Shown here piece by piece: positions 25,027 to 60,884 of a stretch of 64,000 bases of DNA. The first letter of the stretch is position 1, and the number at the start of each line of letters is the position of its first letter. Origin of the DNA: Pseudidiomarina tainanensis. GTDB lineage: Bacteria > Pseudomonadota > Gammaproteobacteria > Enterobacterales > Alteromonadaceae. The position numbers and the translations under genes are program-made. The notes beneath the pieces were generated by a model. That model was given only the letters and a program-made list of their open reading frames with translations. It made no database searches and was not told the origin of the DNA. Location: positions 186,001-250,000 of the forward strand of contig NZ_PIQJ01000002.1 of assembly GCF_004214835.1 (NCBI RefSeq), written 5' to 3'.

Positions 25027-25088
25027 ACGCCGCTATTTTAACCAATGGCGGCTCATCCCGTCTCCTCGTGTTTTTACAGGCTTTATCA

Positions 25089-26927
25089 ATGACAATTCAA
25101 GCGACTGAACTTTCCAAGCTGCGTAATATTGCAATTATTGCGCACGTTGACCATGGCAAAACAACCTTGGTTGATAAACTTCTTCAGCAATCGGGCACTT
25201 TAGAGAGCCGCGGTGGCGTAGAAGAACGCATCATGGACTCCAACGATCTTGAGAAAGAACGTGGCATCACCATTTTGGCGAAGAACACCGCGGTAAATTA
25301 CAAAGACTACCGCATCAACATTCTCGACACGCCAGGACACGCCGATTTCGGTGGTGAAGTAGAGCGCGTATTGTCAATGGCAGACTCAGTATTGTTGGTT
25401 GTTGACGCCGTTGACGGCCCAATGCCACAAACCCGTTTCGTGACCCAAAAAGCGTTCGCGCACGGCTTGAAGCCCATTGTCGTTATCAACAAGATTGACC
25501 GCCCAGGCGCACGTCCTGATTGGGTTATGGACCAAGTATTCGACTTGTTCGATAACTTAGGCGCAACCGACGAACAATTAGATTTCCCAGTGGTTTATGC
25601 TTCTGCATTAAACGGTTGGGCAACTTTGGATTACAACGAACAAACCGACAACATGACGGCGTTGTTCGAAACCATTCTCGAGAAAGTATCACCACCTGAT
25701 GCAGACCGCGACGGTGCGTTGCAAATGCAAATTTCACAGCTTGATTACTCAAGCTACGTGGGCATTATCGGTATCGGCCGAATCAAGCGTGGTACCTTGA
25801 AACTGAACCAGCAGGTTACCATTGTTGGTGCTGACGGCACCAAGCGTAACGGCAAAGTGGGTCAAATTTTTGGTTACTTGGGCCTTGACCGTATCGAAAC
25901 GGACCAAGCAAGCGCTGGCGATATCGTCGCGGTAACCGGTTTGGGCGAATTGAAGATTTCTGACACCGTGTGCGCGGCAGGTACCGTTGAAGCGTTGCCA
26001 GCACTGACTGTTGATGAGCCAACGGTAACGATGACCTTCCAGGTCAACACCTCACCGTTCGCGGGTAAAGAAGGTAAGTTCGTAACTTCTCGTCAGATTC
26101 TTGAGCGTTTGCAGCAAGAATTGAAACACAACGTTGCATTGCGCGTTGAAGAAACCGACAACCCTGACCGTTTCCGTGTGTCTGGTCGTGGTGAATTGCA
26201 CTTAGGCGTATTGATTGAAAACATGCGTCGTGAAGGTTTCGAATTAGCGGTATCACGCCCTGAAGTTATCATGCGTGAAGTGAACGGCGTGAAAGAAGAG
26301 CCGTTTGAAAACTTAACCGTGGACATCGAAGAGCAGCATCAAGGTTCAGTCATGGAAAAACTTGGCTTGCGTAAAGCTGAGATGACCAACATGACTCCAG
26401 ATGGTAAAGGCCGTATCCGTATCGACTTTATCGTACCAAGCCGTGGTTTGATTGGCTTCCAAACTGAATTCATGACGTTGTCGTCAGGTACCGGTTTGAT
26501 GTACCACAGCTTTGACCACTACGGCCCATTTAAAGGCGGTAACATTGGTCAGCGTATCAACGGCGTATTGATTTCAAATGCCCAAGGTAAAGCTTTGGCC
26601 TACGCATTGTTTAACTTGCAAGAGCGCGGTCGCCTGATGATTGGCCACGCTGAAGAAGTATACGAAGGTATGGTGATTGGTATTCACAGCCGTTCAAACG
26701 ACCTGACTGTAAACTGTTTGAAAGGTAAGCAGCTCACCAACATCCGTGCCGCTGGTACCGATGACGCATTATTGTTGACCCCGCCAATTCGTATGTCGCT
26801 TGAGCAAGCGCTTGAGTTTATCGATGACGACGAATTGGTCGAAATCACACCAAAATCAATTCGTATTCGTAAGCGTATGCTCACTGAAAACGAACGTAAA
26901 CGCGCTAGCCGTAGCAAAGACGACTAA
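25089..26927 (+). CDS. typA: Ribosome-associated GTPase TypA/BipA
   Basis: A 612-residue translational GTPase related to EF-G. G1 [10 protein letters not shown] lies near 13-22, the switch I region has EKERGITI, G3 is [13 protein letters not shown]4 NKIDRP and G5 SALNGW. Domains III and V and the unique C-terminal domain follow, ending in a basic tail [11 protein letters not shown]-like. The frame opens upstream at a GTG (25068), but the ATG at 25089 gives the conserved N-terminus [12 protein letters not shown] and has an AGG-type ribosome-binding site. BipA acts in 50S biogenesis and low-temperature or stress growth. It is followed by a strong terminator. Confidence 0.97.
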
Positions 26928-27689: not shown

Positions 27690-27744
27690 TTGCATATTGC
27701 AATGTATGTCGCATTATGCAATATATTAATGTCGCAAAGCGCAA
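27690..27744. promoter_or_regulatory. LuxO-type activator-binding sites upstream of a sigma-54 promoter
   Basis: TTGCATATTGCAA (27690-27702) matches the Vibrio LuxO box TTGCA-WWW-TGCAA exactly. TCGCATTATGCAA (27709-27721) differs at one position. TCGCAAAGCGCAA (27732-27744) is a weaker dyad. Centres are 19 and 23 bp apart, and the group lies about 90-145 bp upstream of the predicted start, normal for an enhancer-binding protein. The consensus is recalled from Vibrio qrr promoters; binding here is inferred. Confidence 0.72.
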
Positions 27745-27806
27745 CTACACTCAAAGCTAGACAATAGCGTAACCTGCTTTTACTCGAATTCAGGTTAATA
27801 AAATTT

Positions 27807-27821
27807 TGGCACGAGTTTTGC
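27807..27821 (+). promoter_or_regulatory. Sigma-54 promoter
   Basis: TGGCACGAGTTTTGC is an exact match to the -24/-12 consensus TGGCACG-N4-TTGC. Initiation is expected near 27833, only 77 bases before the LuxO-like start codon and upstream of a complete terminator hairpin. Confidence 0.9.
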
Positions 27822-27832
27822 TTGATAATAAA

Positions 27833-27909
27833 TTGCGTGAAAGATCTCCCATCTAAACGCTTTGCCGAGCAGCTCGTTTTCCCTTTTTTACGAGCTGGTC
27901 GGTTTTTTT
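27833..27909 (+). ncRNA. Candidate sigma-54-dependent small RNA (or attenuated leader) of the LuxO-like gene
   Basis: From the predicted sigma-54 start (about 27833) to the end of a T-run (27909) is about 77 nt. The 5' part, about 32 nt, is predicted unstructured and contains AGATCTCCCATCTAAACG, whose CUCCC could pair with Shine-Dalgarno-like sequences. The 3' part is a 13-bp hairpin with one G-G mismatch, a U/C-rich loop and seven U, like an Hfq-type sRNA tail. Position and regulation mimic qrr1 next to luxO in Vibrio, but I do not see the conserved Qrr core (GCCAACTGACGTTGTTAG). The alternative is a transcription attenuator for the downstream gene. Confidence 0.6.
27865..27909 (+). terminator. 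Intrinsic terminator ending at the LuxO-like start codon
   Basis: CCGAGCAGCTCGT (27865-27877) pairs with ACGAGCTGGTCGG (27890-27902), 12 of 13 positions, with a 12-base loop. TTTTTTT (27903-27909) follows and the ATG is the next base. Expression of the downstream gene from the sigma-54 promoter would require read-through. Confidence 0.88.
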
Positions 27910-29316
27910 ATGAAAAGGCTAATTAAAGAGATGTCTGAAAATATAACAAGAAGAAAAATTCTTATCATTGAAGATAACCAAACGACGTCTTTAATTTACA
28001 GAAATTATTTAGGCAAAGAATTTGAAGTTACCGTTGTCGATAATGGGGCGGAAGCTTTGGAAAGTTTTCAGCAACATATGGCAGATTTAGTCCTACTCGA
28101 TTTAAATCTACCAGATATCGACGGCATTCAACTCCTACAAAGTTTTCGCGAAATCGATAAGCATATTCCAATAATTATCGTAACGGGTGATAGCTCTTAT
28201 GAGCAGGTCAGTAAAGCTCTTCACTTAAAAGCCACAGACTATCTCACTAAGCCGATTGACCGAGGTCGTCTCAATGTAACGATCGCCAATGCCTTTCGCG
28301 ATGTTCGATTGACCAAGCGGATTAGTCACCTAAACAGCTCCTCGAAACCATATATTTTTCATGGCATGGTTGGTCGGTCGCCTGCGATAACAACGATATT
28401 TGAAATTATTAAAAGTGCAGCGAAAAGTAGCGCATCTATATTTATCACCGGCGAGAGTGGGACAGGTAAAGAGCTATGCGCAGAAGCCATTCATTTAGAA
28501 AGTGACCGGCGCAATCGTCCGTTTATTGCCCTGAACTGCGCCGCTATTCCTCGCGAGTTACTCGAGTCGGAGCTCTTTGGTCACGTTCGCGGTGCATTTA
28601 CCGGAGCGAATACCGAGAGGGTGGGAGCTGCCAAACGCGCTGACGGCGGTACATTGTTTCTCGATGAAATTGGGGAGCTTCCAGTCGATCTTCAAAGCAA
28701 GCTACTTCGCTTCATTCAAACTAGAAAATTTCAGCCGCTAGGAAGTAATGAGCTTGTAGCGGTCGATGTAAGATTCGTTTGTGCAACGAATCGGGATCCT
28801 CATGAAGCAATTGCAGCAGGTATATTGCGAGAAGATCTCTACTATCGCCTTAACGTATTGCCAATCCATCTGCCACCTCTACGGGAGCGGGGTGATGATG
28901 TCGTTCTTATTGCGCGAGAGCTTCTCAAGGCAATTTCATTGGAAGAGAACAAAAGCTTCCAACGGTATTCCAACGCCGTAGAGTCTGTTTTTCGAGTTTA
29001 TAAATGGCCGGGTAATATACGCGAGTTATCCAACACTATCCGCAAAATTATTGTATTAAATGATGGCGATGTTATTACTCCTGGAATGATTCCTTCAAAT
29101 CTCATTGAGCCGAGACAACAAATAACTCAGAGCCCTGCCGAAGATTCAGATCAGGCGACGGTAAATCCACTACAACCAATGTGGAAAGTCGAACAAGAGG
29201 TTATTTTGATGGCTCTAAAGCACTGTGATGGACGTGTCAGGAAGGCAGCAAAGCTTTTAGAAATTGATCCATCAACGTTATATCGAAAAATCGAGCGTTG
29301 GAACTTAAAGGTATAA
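27910..29316 (+). CDS. luxO: LuxO-like sigma-54-dependent response regulator
   Basis: A 468-residue NtrC-family regulator closest in motif detail to Vibrio LuxO. REC covers about 15-135 (IIEDN, phospho-Asp in ADLVLLDLNLPD near 64, YLTKPID). AAA+ covers about 155-385, with Walker A GESGTGKE near 180, GAFTGA near 228 and [11 protein letters not shown]. LuxO-like strings include ASIFITGESGTGKELCAEAI, LLRFIQT and VRFVCATNRDP. The Fis-type HTH ends the protein (KAAKLLEIDPSTLYRKIERW). The start is uncertain: ATG 27910 abuts the terminator T-run and has no ribosome-binding site; ATG 27931 (MSENITRR) follows AAAGAG. A TTG further upstream lies inside the hairpin. The next gene starts six bases after the stop. 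The symbol denotes family, not proven orthology. Confidence 0.82.
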   Translation: MKRLIKEMSENITRRKILIIEDNQTTSLIYRNYLGKEFEVTVVDNGAEALESFQQHMADLVLLDLNLPDIDGIQLLQSFREIDKHIPIIIVTGDSSYEQVSKALHLKATDYLTKPIDRGRLNVTIANAFRDVRLTKRISHLNSSSKPYIFHGMVGRSPAITTIFEIIKSAAKSSASIFITGESGTGKELCAEAIHLESDRRNRPFIALNCAAIPRELLESELFGHVRGAFTGANTERVGAAKRADGGTLFLDEIGELPVDLQSKLLRFIQTRKFQPLGSNELVAVDVRFVCATNRDPHEAIAAGILREDLYYRLNVLPIHLPPLRERGDDVVLIARELLKAISLEENKSFQRYSNAVESVFRVYKWPGNIRELSNTIRKIIVLNDGDVITPGMIPSNLIEPRQQITQSPAEDSDQATVNPLQPMWKVEQEVILMALKHCDGRVRKAAKLLEIDPSTLYRKIERWNLKV

Positions 29317-29322
29317 ATTAAG

Positions 29323-30576
29323 ATGTTTGGGCATTTCTACAACCAACTAAACGCGAAAATTACTTCTGGAGTGACAGCAGAGAAATTATTTGCCGTGTGC
29401 TACATCGATCTTGATCACTTTTTCGAGATTCAGCAGGACTTTGGTTGCGAAGTGAGTGAAATAGCTTTGCGCTCAATACACGAACGGGTAGCCAGTATCT
29501 TAAGTCCAGATGACTTTTTGTCGCAAAGTGCGAGTGATCAGTTTTTTGTTTTCATTGCGTTAGAGAATCTTGACTCAAACCTAGCGCAGCTTTGCGAATT
29601 TATTAGCGCTCCTATCAAAATATCGGATTATCTTATAAGCATAACTGCATCAATTGGCGTGCACATCCTTAAAGAGCAGGATAAATCGCCGGACCATGTA
29701 TTACGAAATGCTATAGAAGCCTGCATTCACGTTAAGCACGAAGGCGGTAATAATTTACACATATACGATGACGAAGCAGTCTTACTTCGCCGAAAAAAGA
29801 GAGAAATAGTCGATCAAGTAATCTTTGGGCTCGAAAACCATCAGTTCGAGCTTTATTTACAGCCTAAATACGACCTTAAGAACTTGGTTGTCATTGGTTT
29901 TGAAGCTCTCATTCGATGGATTGACCCTGAACGCGGAATAATTAGCCCTGCTATTTTGCTCGACGCAATTGCTGGAACCGAAGCCGAGCGACTTATCGAT
30001 GAATTTGTACTTGAAGAGGCGCTGACAATACTGAAGGGTTTGCATAAACTAAACCGCACCCTTAGCTTGAGCATCAATGTCAGCCCAGCTCAGCTAATGA
30101 GCCCTTGGTTTGCAGCGCAAGTAGAGCTTTATTACACCAAGTATCCCATTCTGATGGAACATTTGCGACTGGAGATTCTTGAAAGTGATACTTTTAAAAA
30201 TTTAGATGTTTTTAAATCCCATCTCGAAAACCTAAAACAGTTTGGTGTTACTCTATCACTTGATGACTTTGGTACAGGCTTCGCTTCGTTAACGCACTTA
30301 TTGATGCTACCAATCAACGAGGTAAAGATCGATCGCTCTTTTGTCACTTCAATTGACACCAATGAGATCAATCAAATGATTGTGAAACACGTCGTGGAGC
30401 TGGCAGAAAAGCTTAATATTTCCACGGTCGTTGAAGGTATCGAAAATCAAAAAGAATTAGCCACCGTACAAAATCTGGGTGTGCATGCTGCGCAAGGCTA
30501 TTTTCTGACGCGACCGTTTCCAAGTAGTAAATTAAAGGATTGGTGGGCAGAACAGTTACTCAACAGCGTTCTATAG
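29323..30576 (+). CDS. Degenerate GGDEF plus EAL protein (probable c-di-GMP phosphodiesterase)
   Basis: A 417-residue cytosolic protein. Residues about 18-150 form a GGDEF-like fold whose signature is replaced by ASDQF near 69, so cyclase activity is unlikely. Residues about 165-410 form an EAL domain that keeps the key motifs: FEALIRW near 192, SINVSP, LEILES, DDFGTGFASL, VKIDRSF, VVEGIEN and AAQGYFLTRPFP. This set is compatible with active cyclic-di-GMP hydrolysis. There is no membrane segment or sensor domain, so control probably comes from partners in the cluster. It lies 6 bases after the LuxO-like gene, presumably in the same transcript. Confidence 0.88.
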   Translation: MFGHFYNQLNAKITSGVTAEKLFAVCYIDLDHFFEIQQDFGCEVSEIALRSIHERVASILSPDDFLSQSASDQFFVFIALENLDSNLAQLCEFISAPIKISDYLISITASIGVHILKEQDKSPDHVLRNAIEACIHVKHEGGNNLHIYDDEAVLLRRKKREIVDQVIFGLENHQFELYLQPKYDLKNLVVIGFEALIRWIDPERGIISPAILLDAIAGTEAERLIDEFVLEEALTILKGLHKLNRTLSLSINVSPAQLMSPWFAAQVELYYTKYPILMEHLRLEILESDTFKNLDVFKSHLENLKQFGVTLSLDDFGTGFASLTHLLMLPINEVKIDRSFVTSIDTNEINQMIVKHVVELAEKLNISTVVEGIENQKELATVQNLGVHAAQGYFLTRPFPSSKLKDWWAEQLLNSVL

Positions 30577-33561: not shown

Positions 33562-33626
33562 CTTCTGAAAATTGCAAAATACAACTAATTCAACATCAAG
33601 CACTTCTATTCACAGGCGATATTCTA

Positions 33627-34244
33627 ATGCAAAGCAAGAGCTCCAAAACCACTTACTTGAGTACATCAGAAGTAGCAAGGTTGCTCGGTGTGTCGGTAGG
33701 GACAGTGCAGCAAATGGTGGAGAGCGGCGAACTCAAAGCATGGAAAACCGCTGGGGGTCATCGCCGAATTCTTAAAGAGTCTGTGGTTGAAATGCAGGGC
33801 ATGCAGCAAAATAATTCAGTTGTAACAGAAGTTAATAAAACACCACAAGTCAAATCCTATCGAACAAATGAATTAGCTATTCTTATTGTTGAAGACGATC
33901 CTGTCGCAGTAAAACTTTATGAACATTTGCTAGAGGCAAATTCAGAAAATGTTCGCGTCGAGTATGCCAGTGATGGTATTGAAGCGCTTTTGAAGCTGGG
34001 GCAACAGCGGTTTAACTTATTAATTTTGGACATCGACATTCCATATGTGGATGGCTATGAAATGCTGAGAAGAATTTCGGCAGATGCTCACCAAAGTTCT
34101 TTGAACATCCTTATTGTCACTGGAACATCAATCAAACCTTCAAATATTGATAATGAAGGTCTAACAATAATTGAAAAGCCGATAAACAAAGCCTTTTTCC
34201 GAGGCTATTTACAGGGGGCTATTGATACCCACCGAGCGAAATAA
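33627..34244 (+). CDS. Excisionase/MerR-type HTH fused to a receiver domain
   Basis: A 205-residue protein. Residues about 9-58 are a winged HTH of the excisionase/BldC type (YLSTSEVARLLGVSVGTVQQM, GGHRRILKESV). After a linker, residues about 84-200 form a REC domain (LIVEDDPVAVKLYEHLL, phospho-Asp in LLILDIDIPYVDG near 134, IVTGTS, IEKPINKA). HTH at the N-terminus followed by REC is the reverse of most response regulators. It is suited to phosphorylation-controlled DNA binding, perhaps at the dyad just upstream of the next gene. Confidence 0.82.
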   Translation: MQSKSSKTTYLSTSEVARLLGVSVGTVQQMVESGELKAWKTAGGHRRILKESVVEMQGMQQNNSVVTEVNKTPQVKSYRTNELAILIVEDDPVAVKLYEHLLEANSENVRVEYASDGIEALLKLGQQRFNLLILDIDIPYVDGYEMLRRISADAHQSSLNILIVTGTSIKPSNIDNEGLTIIEKPINKAFFRGYLQGAIDTHRAK

Positions 34245-44081: not shown

Positions 44082-44987
44082 ATGTACCGTGTTATCGCGC
44101 CGGAAACGCCGGAACAGCTCGCTTCGTATTACGACTTGCGATGGCGAGTATTACGCGAACCGTTTCAACGACCACGTGGTTCTGAACAGGATGAATACGA
44201 TCAAGTCGGCTATCACCGCATGGTGGTTAATAGCGCTGGACAAGCAGTTGCGGTCGGGCGTCTTCATTTTAATAGCCCAGATGAAGGTCAGATTCGCTTT
44301 ATGGCGTCAGCGCCTGAGCATCGTGGCGAGGGCCATGGCGTTGCGATTGTTTATGAGCTCGAGAAAGTAGCCCGTGCAGAGGGTGCCAAACACATTGTGA
44401 TTAATTCGCGTGATAACACACTGGGGTTCTATATTAAGTGTGGTTATGAGGTGGTTGAAGAAGGCGATACGGTAAAAAATCCGCAGGCGGAACATCAGCT
44501 GAGAAAGACGTTGACCGAGTTTAACCGTATTATTTATCGCCCGGATTGGTGCCAAGAACTTGAAACCACTTGGCATAGTGAAATTCCGATTTCCGAAACA
44601 ATGGGGATTAGGATTACCCAATATACCGGACGTGAATTTGAAACAACGGCGACCTTGTCGCGCAATATTAACGTGCATGGCACTATGTTTGCCGGCAGTA
44701 TTTATTCATTGGCGACCTTGACGTGCTGGGGGTTATTGCATTTACAATTGCGCGAACGGCAGTTGCACGGCGCAGTCGTATTGGCCGATGGTCAAATTCA
44801 CTACCACAAACCGGTCAGCCGAGAACCGCGCGCCATTGCTCGATTGTCAGCGATGACAGGGGATTTATCGGCACTTACATTGGGTAAAAATGCGCGCGCT
44901 ACGCTAAAGTCACAAGTATTTGATGGTGATAAACCCGTTGCTGAATTTACTGGCCAGTTTGTCGTGCTCGCGAAAAAAGAAAAATAA
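44082..44987 (+). CDS. Bifunctional GNAT acetyltransferase / YiiD-type hotdog thioesterase
   Basis: A 301-residue two-domain protein. Residues about 1-145 are a GNAT fold (RWRVLREPFQRPRGSEQDEYD, MASAPEHRGEGHGVAIVYELEK with the acetyl-CoA loop, NTLGFYIKCGYEV). Residues about 155-300 are a YiiD_C putative thioesterase of hotdog type (HGTMFAGSIYSLATLTCWGLL). The arrangement and position after yihY-dtd match E. coli yiiD (fabY-like proposals exist for such proteins). The substrate is not established. Confidence 0.88.
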   Translation: MYRVIAPETPEQLASYYDLRWRVLREPFQRPRGSEQDEYDQVGYHRMVVNSAGQAVAVGRLHFNSPDEGQIRFMASAPEHRGEGHGVAIVYELEKVARAEGAKHIVINSRDNTLGFYIKCGYEVVEEGDTVKNPQAEHQLRKTLTEFNRIIYRPDWCQELETTWHSEIPISETMGIRITQYTGREFETTATLSRNINVHGTMFAGSIYSLATLTCWGLLHLQLRERQLHGAVVLADGQIHYHKPVSREPRAIARLSAMTGDLSALTLGKNARATLKSQVFDGDKPVAEFTGQFVVLAKKEK

Positions 44988-60743: not shown

Positions 60744-60884
60744 GGGGTTACCTCGTTAGGCTGCATCGCCACCCGACCCGAAGTCGAGCACCACGCAAAT
60801 TACTGTTTCAAAAAAGCGCTGATTTATTAATCAACGCGACAAATTAGGGCGCGAATTATAAGCGCCAAGCCCCTCAAGATCAAG

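Follow-up and report, generated by a model that had tools for sequence, protein, structure and literature searches.

Results

Elements between typA and a LuxO-family gene

The window, that is, the whole stretch of 64,000 nucleotides that we analyzed (G000:C5:186001-250000), comes from the genome of Pseudidiomarina tainanensis (G000), which comprises 2.37 Mb in 5 contigs. Between typA (25068-26927) and a gene for a LuxO-family regulator, it contains, in this order, two boxes, a sigma-54 promoter, and a hairpin followed by a T-run. The boxes, the promoter, the predicted RNA with its hairpins, the regulator gene, and the gene that follows it all lie on the plus strand. A LuxO-type box that matches TTGCAWWWTGCAA exactly (TTGCATATTGCAA) is located at 27690-27702, about -143 to -131 from the predicted start, and a second box with one mismatch, TCGCATTATGCAA, is located at 27709-27721. 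A perfect sigma-54 promoter, TGGCACGAGTTTTGC, occupies 27807-27821. These three elements had been pointed out in a first-pass annotation of the letters, and we found each of them in place. According to the portions of the two articles available to us, TTGCAWWWTGCAA is the LuxO site and SypG uses overlapping sites (PMC10162802), and the LuxO sites at four qrr genes of Vibrio cholerae have the same form (PMC10328515).

We evaluated how often such an arrangement would arise by chance with 150 first-order Markov simulations. Counting both strands, exact TTGCAN3TGCAA boxes had a mean of 0.28 per 64 kb and exact sigma-54 sites a mean of 0.33, and in none of the 150 runs was an exact sigma-54 site preceded by an exact box at a distance of up to 250 nt, the analytic expectation being 0.0004 per window. 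Counted with up to one mismatch, neither the boxes in the window (5 observed versus 6.9 expected) nor the sigma-54 sites (11 versus 8.0) exceeded chance numbers. The P. tainanensis genome contains 6 exact boxes, of which that of the window alone lies within 300 nt of an exact sigma-54 site; sigma-54 sites near three of the others carry one mismatch (L208) or two (L210 and L211).

Several further matches were recorded. A one-mismatch box, TTGCAAAATACAA, at 33572-33584 of the window lies 42 nt before a gene at 33627 that encodes an HTH and a receiver domain, such boxes not exceeding chance numbers. The second exact sigma-54 match of the window, at 44678-44692, falls within an open frame (44082-44984), and a ribosomal protein L31 leader (RF03157, 40 bits) is found on the minus strand at 60750-60797. 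An exact box, TTGCACCATGCAA, at position 1501 of both L204 (G000) and L206 (G013), precedes the same transporter-like gene (MSQ..PKGLYVLFT.EMWERFSYYG) by ∼75 nt and has no sigma-54 site.

Downstream of the promoter, a small RNA of 77 nt is predicted at 27833-27909, its start being inferred from the -12 element and its end from the T-run. The RNA is predicted to fold into two hairpins (-29.2 kcal/mol, z = -5.1). The first one (27835-27860) presents CUCCC in its loop (27846-27850), which is where we place this motif, rather than in the unstructured 5' arm of the first-pass annotation; the arm GUGAAAGAUCUCCC of this hairpin, at 27837-27850, is conserved. The second one is an intrinsic terminator (27864-27909), composed of a 13-bp hairpin with one mismatch and a U-run. 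It was missed by a simple terminator scan, which considers loops of 3 to 8, its predicted loop being 12 nt. The observation that a predicted, terminated 77-nt RNA precedes a LuxO-like gene is upheld.

A LuxO-family regulator followed by a GGDEF-EAL protein

The T-run is directly followed by an ATG at 27910, as had been noticed earlier; this codon is an alternative start and probably not the one used, since homologous proteins begin at the second ATG, at 27931 (MSENITRRK). The regulator gene accordingly spans 27931-29316, and it is directly followed by a gene for a GGDEF-EAL protein (29323-30576). Like LuxO and SypG, the regulator has a receiver domain, an AAA+ domain, and a Fis-type HTH, and Pfam recognizes its receiver, sigma-54 interaction, and Fis-type HTH domains. 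LuxO (NF041946) is the best NCBIfam family by 157 bits, with a score of 547.5 bits that does not reach the cut-off of 800, and LuxO is also the best match in the PDB (5ep0). The regulator is 49% identical to a Vibrio LuxO, so that the two proteins are about as distant as LuxO is from SypG, which are about 48% alike according to the available portion of PMC10162802. Of the six recognition-helix residues of LuxO given in the accessible part of PMC11407668, the window protein shares four (S, Y, R, and K), and the other two change from I to L and from L to I. In a tree of 28 proteins, the regulator and its three close homologs described below formed their own clade (100/100), which fell outside a group of 17 LuxO relatives that includes Vibrio LuxO and its paralog, with a support for this placement of 88/89 that is below the strict threshold and with several long branches in the tree. 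Given the score under 800, the 49% identity, and the separate clade, the protein is, as judged from its sequence, a LuxO-family regulator and not LuxO proper. The earlier description of a LuxO-like regulator holds for the family, with a score under the LuxO cut-off.

Conservation within the genus

We searched 26 genomes of the genus, including that of the window, with the regulator protein. Three further genomes contained close homologs, G001 (65% identity), G013 (64%), and G025 (53%), with E values of at most 1.6e-160; in the other 22 of the 26 genomes, the best E value was 8.8e-93 or weaker, corresponding to distant proteins only. In all four genomes with the regulator, an exact TGGCACN5TTGC lies upstream of its gene. 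In G001, G013, and G025, GATCTCCC stands 19 to 21 nt past the sigma-54 site and is followed by a strong hairpin with a T-run and then by the regulator gene. The pattern of the promoter plus ATCTCCC was found in 4 of the 26 genus genomes, exactly those with a close regulator homolog.

The sequence of the arm of the first hairpin is GUGGAAGAUCUCCCGUCUUA in G025 and GUGAAAGAUCUCCCAUCUAA in the other three genomes, giving the consensus GUGRAAGAUCUCCC, with CUCCC within the loop in 4/4 genomes. The RNAs of G001, G013, and G025 adopt the same predicted two-hairpin fold, with z scores of -6.3, -5.2, and -9.4, respectively. Across the four sequences, the inner stem contains one change from U-A to U-G, making covariation thin, and in G025 the pairing of the outer stem is shifted in register; as the model-fitted alignment of the RNA carries over a register error from its seed, we drew no pair counts from it. 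The terminator of the window does not share the sequence of the other three and occupies the same position, which points to selection for termination itself. The order RNA, regulator, GGDEF-EAL gene is shared by all four genomes, the GGDEF-EAL proteins being 38 to 46% identical. On the far side, typA is present in G000, G013, and G025, and the contig of G001 begins at the RNA. Past the GGDEF-EAL gene, the window has extra genes ahead of the next block that the genomes have in common; they are absent from G001, G013, and G025.

In G013, two boxes, TTGCATATTGCAT and TTGCACTATGCAA, stand 21 nt apart in a position like that of the window's boxes. Boxes were thus found in two of the three promoters that could be read (G000 and G013), the contig of G001 ending before the box region, and the box region of G025 showed no box at up to one mismatch. 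In G013 (L202 1501-1700), the boxes lie between two divergent exact sigma-54 promoters, one directed toward the RNA and the regulator and the other toward a histidine kinase with PDC-type sensor and PAS domains, which may be the partner of the regulator. G025 has, where the other genomes have LuxO boxes, a 30-nt direct repeat (L005 3090-3159) with two copies that are 70% alike and 40 nt apart; this repeat may be a diverged activator site and provides a lead.

The element is real and conserved. At the level of sequence, its parts, their conservation, and their shared place are established by the four genomes, in agreement with the expectation that relatives with the same gene would share them: promoter, first hairpin, and terminator are present in 4/4 and boxes in 2/3 readable promoters.

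The RNA is not a Qrr by Rfam and looks confined to a clade

In Vibrio, one qrr gene adjoins luxO. We compared the element with Rfam. No family matched at gathering, and a search of 501 bases around the element with E values up to 10 returned no Qrr, only chance matches to other families. In a single run over 13 loci, Qrr (RF00378) was detected at 71.6 bits in the Vibrio control (L006) and at none of the loci of the four genomes. By Rfam, then, the RNA is not a Qrr, in line with the first-pass annotation, which had noted that it lacks the Qrr core. The same run showed a molybdenum cofactor riboswitch (84.7 bits) at 3581-3724 of L008 (G058), downstream of a LuxO-family gene.

A covariance search of related genomes, suggested by the first-pass annotation, was carried out with a model of the promoter plus the first hairpin on 394 genomes of the order. 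G000 scored 80 bits and G013 77 bits, and all others scored at most 27.8 bits; the sample included these two members and listed neither G001 nor G025. At E values of up to 0.1, 72 of the 394 genomes gave a match. We read 28 of the weak loci, most of which matched chiefly the sigma-54 part of the model; in L221 and L223 (27.8 and 27.5 bits), a stretch resembling the arm is present and the sigma-54 consensus is incomplete. Within the family, LuxO relatives at E values of up to 1e-105 occur in 38 of 395 genomes, namely, the four genomes and 34 others. Among 26 of these 34, none had a box, a sigma-54 site, and a terminator in the same direction within the 900 nt upstream of the gene. From the order-wide covariance search and from these LuxO-relative loci without a like element, the RNA seems to be restricted to one clade of the genus.

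Two further searches were set aside. A class-wide pattern matched 19 places in 18 of 369 genomes; the 18 places outside the window lacked AAGATCTCCC and were taken as chance, the backward control pattern occurring in 7 genomes. A 19-mer with up to 3 mismatches occurred in 32 of 97 genomes and was uninformative save for three exact matches (G000, G001, and G013). A scan of named genomes returned 11 loci, mostly of distant activators. At L095 (G664), outside the vibrios, an exact box stands between a more distant LuxO-family gene and a divergent exact sigma-54 site (∼1270-1430), and the divergent frame, read by eye, resembles that of a receiver-domain protein.

In the open-access literature on LuxO or Qrr in Idiomarina, Alteromonadales, Shewanella, and Pseudoalteromonas, no report of the window RNA was found among the matches listed. 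One article discusses luxO in Pseudoalteromonas, the word Qrr being absent from its available portion (PMC6275029). As far as these searches reach, the predicted RNA is new in sequence.

Candidate targets of the conserved arm

We calculated duplex energies between the arm and 269 start regions (70 from G000, 33 from G013, and 166 from G008), which had a mean of -11.0 kcal/mol (standard deviation, 3.3). The start region of pilA reached -24.3 kcal/mol in G013 and -20.5 kcal/mol in G000, ranks 1 and 3 of 269 that are selected, since the gene had been picked out by its GGGAGAT ahead of the ATG. The search for this motif yielded 39 places, all of which were examined; it returned pilA in three genomes and three further pairs common only to the close relatives G001 and G013. 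The pilA region of G001 is identical in its letters to that of G013, and the pairing predicted in both has 15 contiguous pairs, extending from the Shine-Dalgarno sequence to the AUG, with G000 one pair short. GGGAG precedes pilA in four of the five genomes read (G000, G001, G008, G013, and G025), the exception being G025, which has the RNA and where pilA attains only -14.1 kcal/mol. Conversely, pilA reaches -19.0 kcal/mol in G008, which lacks the RNA, and an MBL-fold gene of G000 (-20.4 kcal/mol) equals pilA there. With evidence both ways, pilA is a candidate target that we regard as doubtful.

A search for TGGGAGA before ATG gave 53 places in the four genomes, of which 50 were examined, and pilM was the sole protein gene common between genomes. 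We rejected pilM as a target, GGGAG preceding it in each of the 22 genus genomes listed, of which 18 lack the RNA. One site common to all four genomes, TGGGAGAGCGCTTGCATG, was taken for a tRNA gene.

Discussion

The locus resembles the Qrr/LuxO system of Vibrionaceae (RF00378) in that, at the sequence level, LuxO-type boxes lie upstream of a sigma-54 promoter and a short terminated RNA adjoins a LuxO-family gene. It differs in that the RNA has no sequence or covariance match to Qrr, is 77 nt long versus 108 positions in the Qrr model, is found once, and stands beside a regulator other than LuxO proper. Moreover, qrr1 and luxO are divergent, whereas the RNA and the regulator are codirectional in the four genomes. 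In Vibrionaceae, Qrr RNAs depend on Hfq, are made at low cell density, and repress a TetR regulator of the HapR/LuxR type, and LuxO has LuxU beside it; here, the neighbor of the regulator is the GGDEF-EAL gene. LuxO and SypG are NtrC-type activators that share upstream activating sequences at qrr1 in Vibrio fischeri, as reported in the part of PMC10162802 at hand.

Other sRNAs are also driven by sigma-54 and an NtrC-type activator, namely, CrcZ/CrcY with CbrB and GlmY with GlrR. They share this plan with the element of the window and differ in their activators, boxes, and RNA sequences, the comparison made here being by Rfam scan, which detected no CrcZ/CrcY or GlmY family at the element.

Considering its parts and their neighbors, the element is very likely an sRNA under the control of sigma-54 and a LuxO-family activator. 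We infer that it is transcribed and that a phosphorylated activator of the LuxO/SypG family, most likely encoded by the next gene, would open the sigma-54 promoter from the two upstream boxes. The RNA would end at the intrinsic terminator just ahead of the regulator gene, and its 5' hairpin would present the CUCCC of the arm for pairing with GGGAG-type Shine-Dalgarno sequences, blocking translation in trans, probably with the help of Hfq. Read-through of the terminator would yield the activator and its GGDEF-EAL partner, thereby creating positive feedback. We consider it rather probable that the element produces, in this manner, an sRNA of ∼77 nt that blocks ribosome-binding sites in trans.

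The same layout might instead be the 5' leader of the regulator/GGDEF-EAL operon and nothing else, with an autoregulated sigma-54 promoter and an attenuator that sets read-through and with no RNA acting in trans. The RNA and the genes are codirectional in 4/4 genomes, and no more than ∼35 nt separate the end of the terminator from the start of the gene, which leaves no space for a separate promoter, so that the mRNA of the regulator must pass the terminator if the layout is read correctly. The RNA could act solely in cis. Yet the conservation of the arm goes far beyond what a terminator or a promoter spacer would need, and the two hairpins are separate, with no antiterminator in the predicted structures (minimum free energy structure frequency of 0.69 for the window and 0.33 to 0.44 for the others), so we judge a leader without trans action unlikely. 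The C-rich loop that is presented in 4/4 genomes would also suit an RNA that binds a protein and not mRNAs; however, there is a single loop rather than a tandem of sites, the sequence suggests no protein, and we hold this to be quite improbable.

Boxes, promoter, and neighbor gene of the same kind would be expected from a true Qrr that diverged past recognition. Against such descent, the element remained silent at gathering and at E values up to 10, versus 71.6 bits for the Vibrio control, and it is codirectional with the regulator, versus an opposite orientation of Qrr and luxO in 20 of 21 Vibrionaceae taxa (PMC10162802, available portion), which makes a diverged Qrr very improbable. Slimmer still is the chance that conservation concerns a short coding sequence starting with the GTG at 27837 (VKDLPS...). 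This frame stays open over 29 codons in the window and, by eye, over 17 in G001, 17 in G013, and 18 in G025, and one of the two changes in the arm of G025 would be synonymous; but the predicted RNA starts ∼4 nt before the GTG and leaves no room for a Shine-Dalgarno sequence, the second half is unconserved, and the frame of the window continues through the terminator.

Returning to an sRNA that acts in trans, the first-pass annotation had proposed a nonhomologous sRNA in a place equivalent to that of Qrr. That place is borne out by a conserved terminated RNA that lies, together with its predicted sigma-54 promoter and LuxO-type boxes, next to a LuxO-family gene. A quorum-sensing circuit did not find such backing; none of the 6 TetR genes found is named as HapR/LuxR (PsrA, FabR, and SlmA scored above the cut-off and three scored below it). 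A more far-reaching possibility, which we advance tentatively and consider unlikely, is that of a LuxO-family switch outside the Vibrionales with its own nonhomologous sRNA in the place of Qrr. This sRNA, the terminated head of the regulator operon, would shut off type IV pilin through the ribosome-binding site and start codon of pilA, and read-through would make the regulator and a c-di-GMP enzyme. If this were true, one phosphorylation signal would set pili, c-di-GMP, and the switch itself.

The locus suggests that the plan of a LuxO-type activator, boxes, sigma-54, and an sRNA can be kept, or made again, with a different RNA. The circuit plan may therefore predate its RNA or evolve more easily than the RNA does. 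As the RNA would be one short gene beside its putative activator, it is simple to test, and it would offer a first handle on the role of LuxO-family regulators outside the vibrios.
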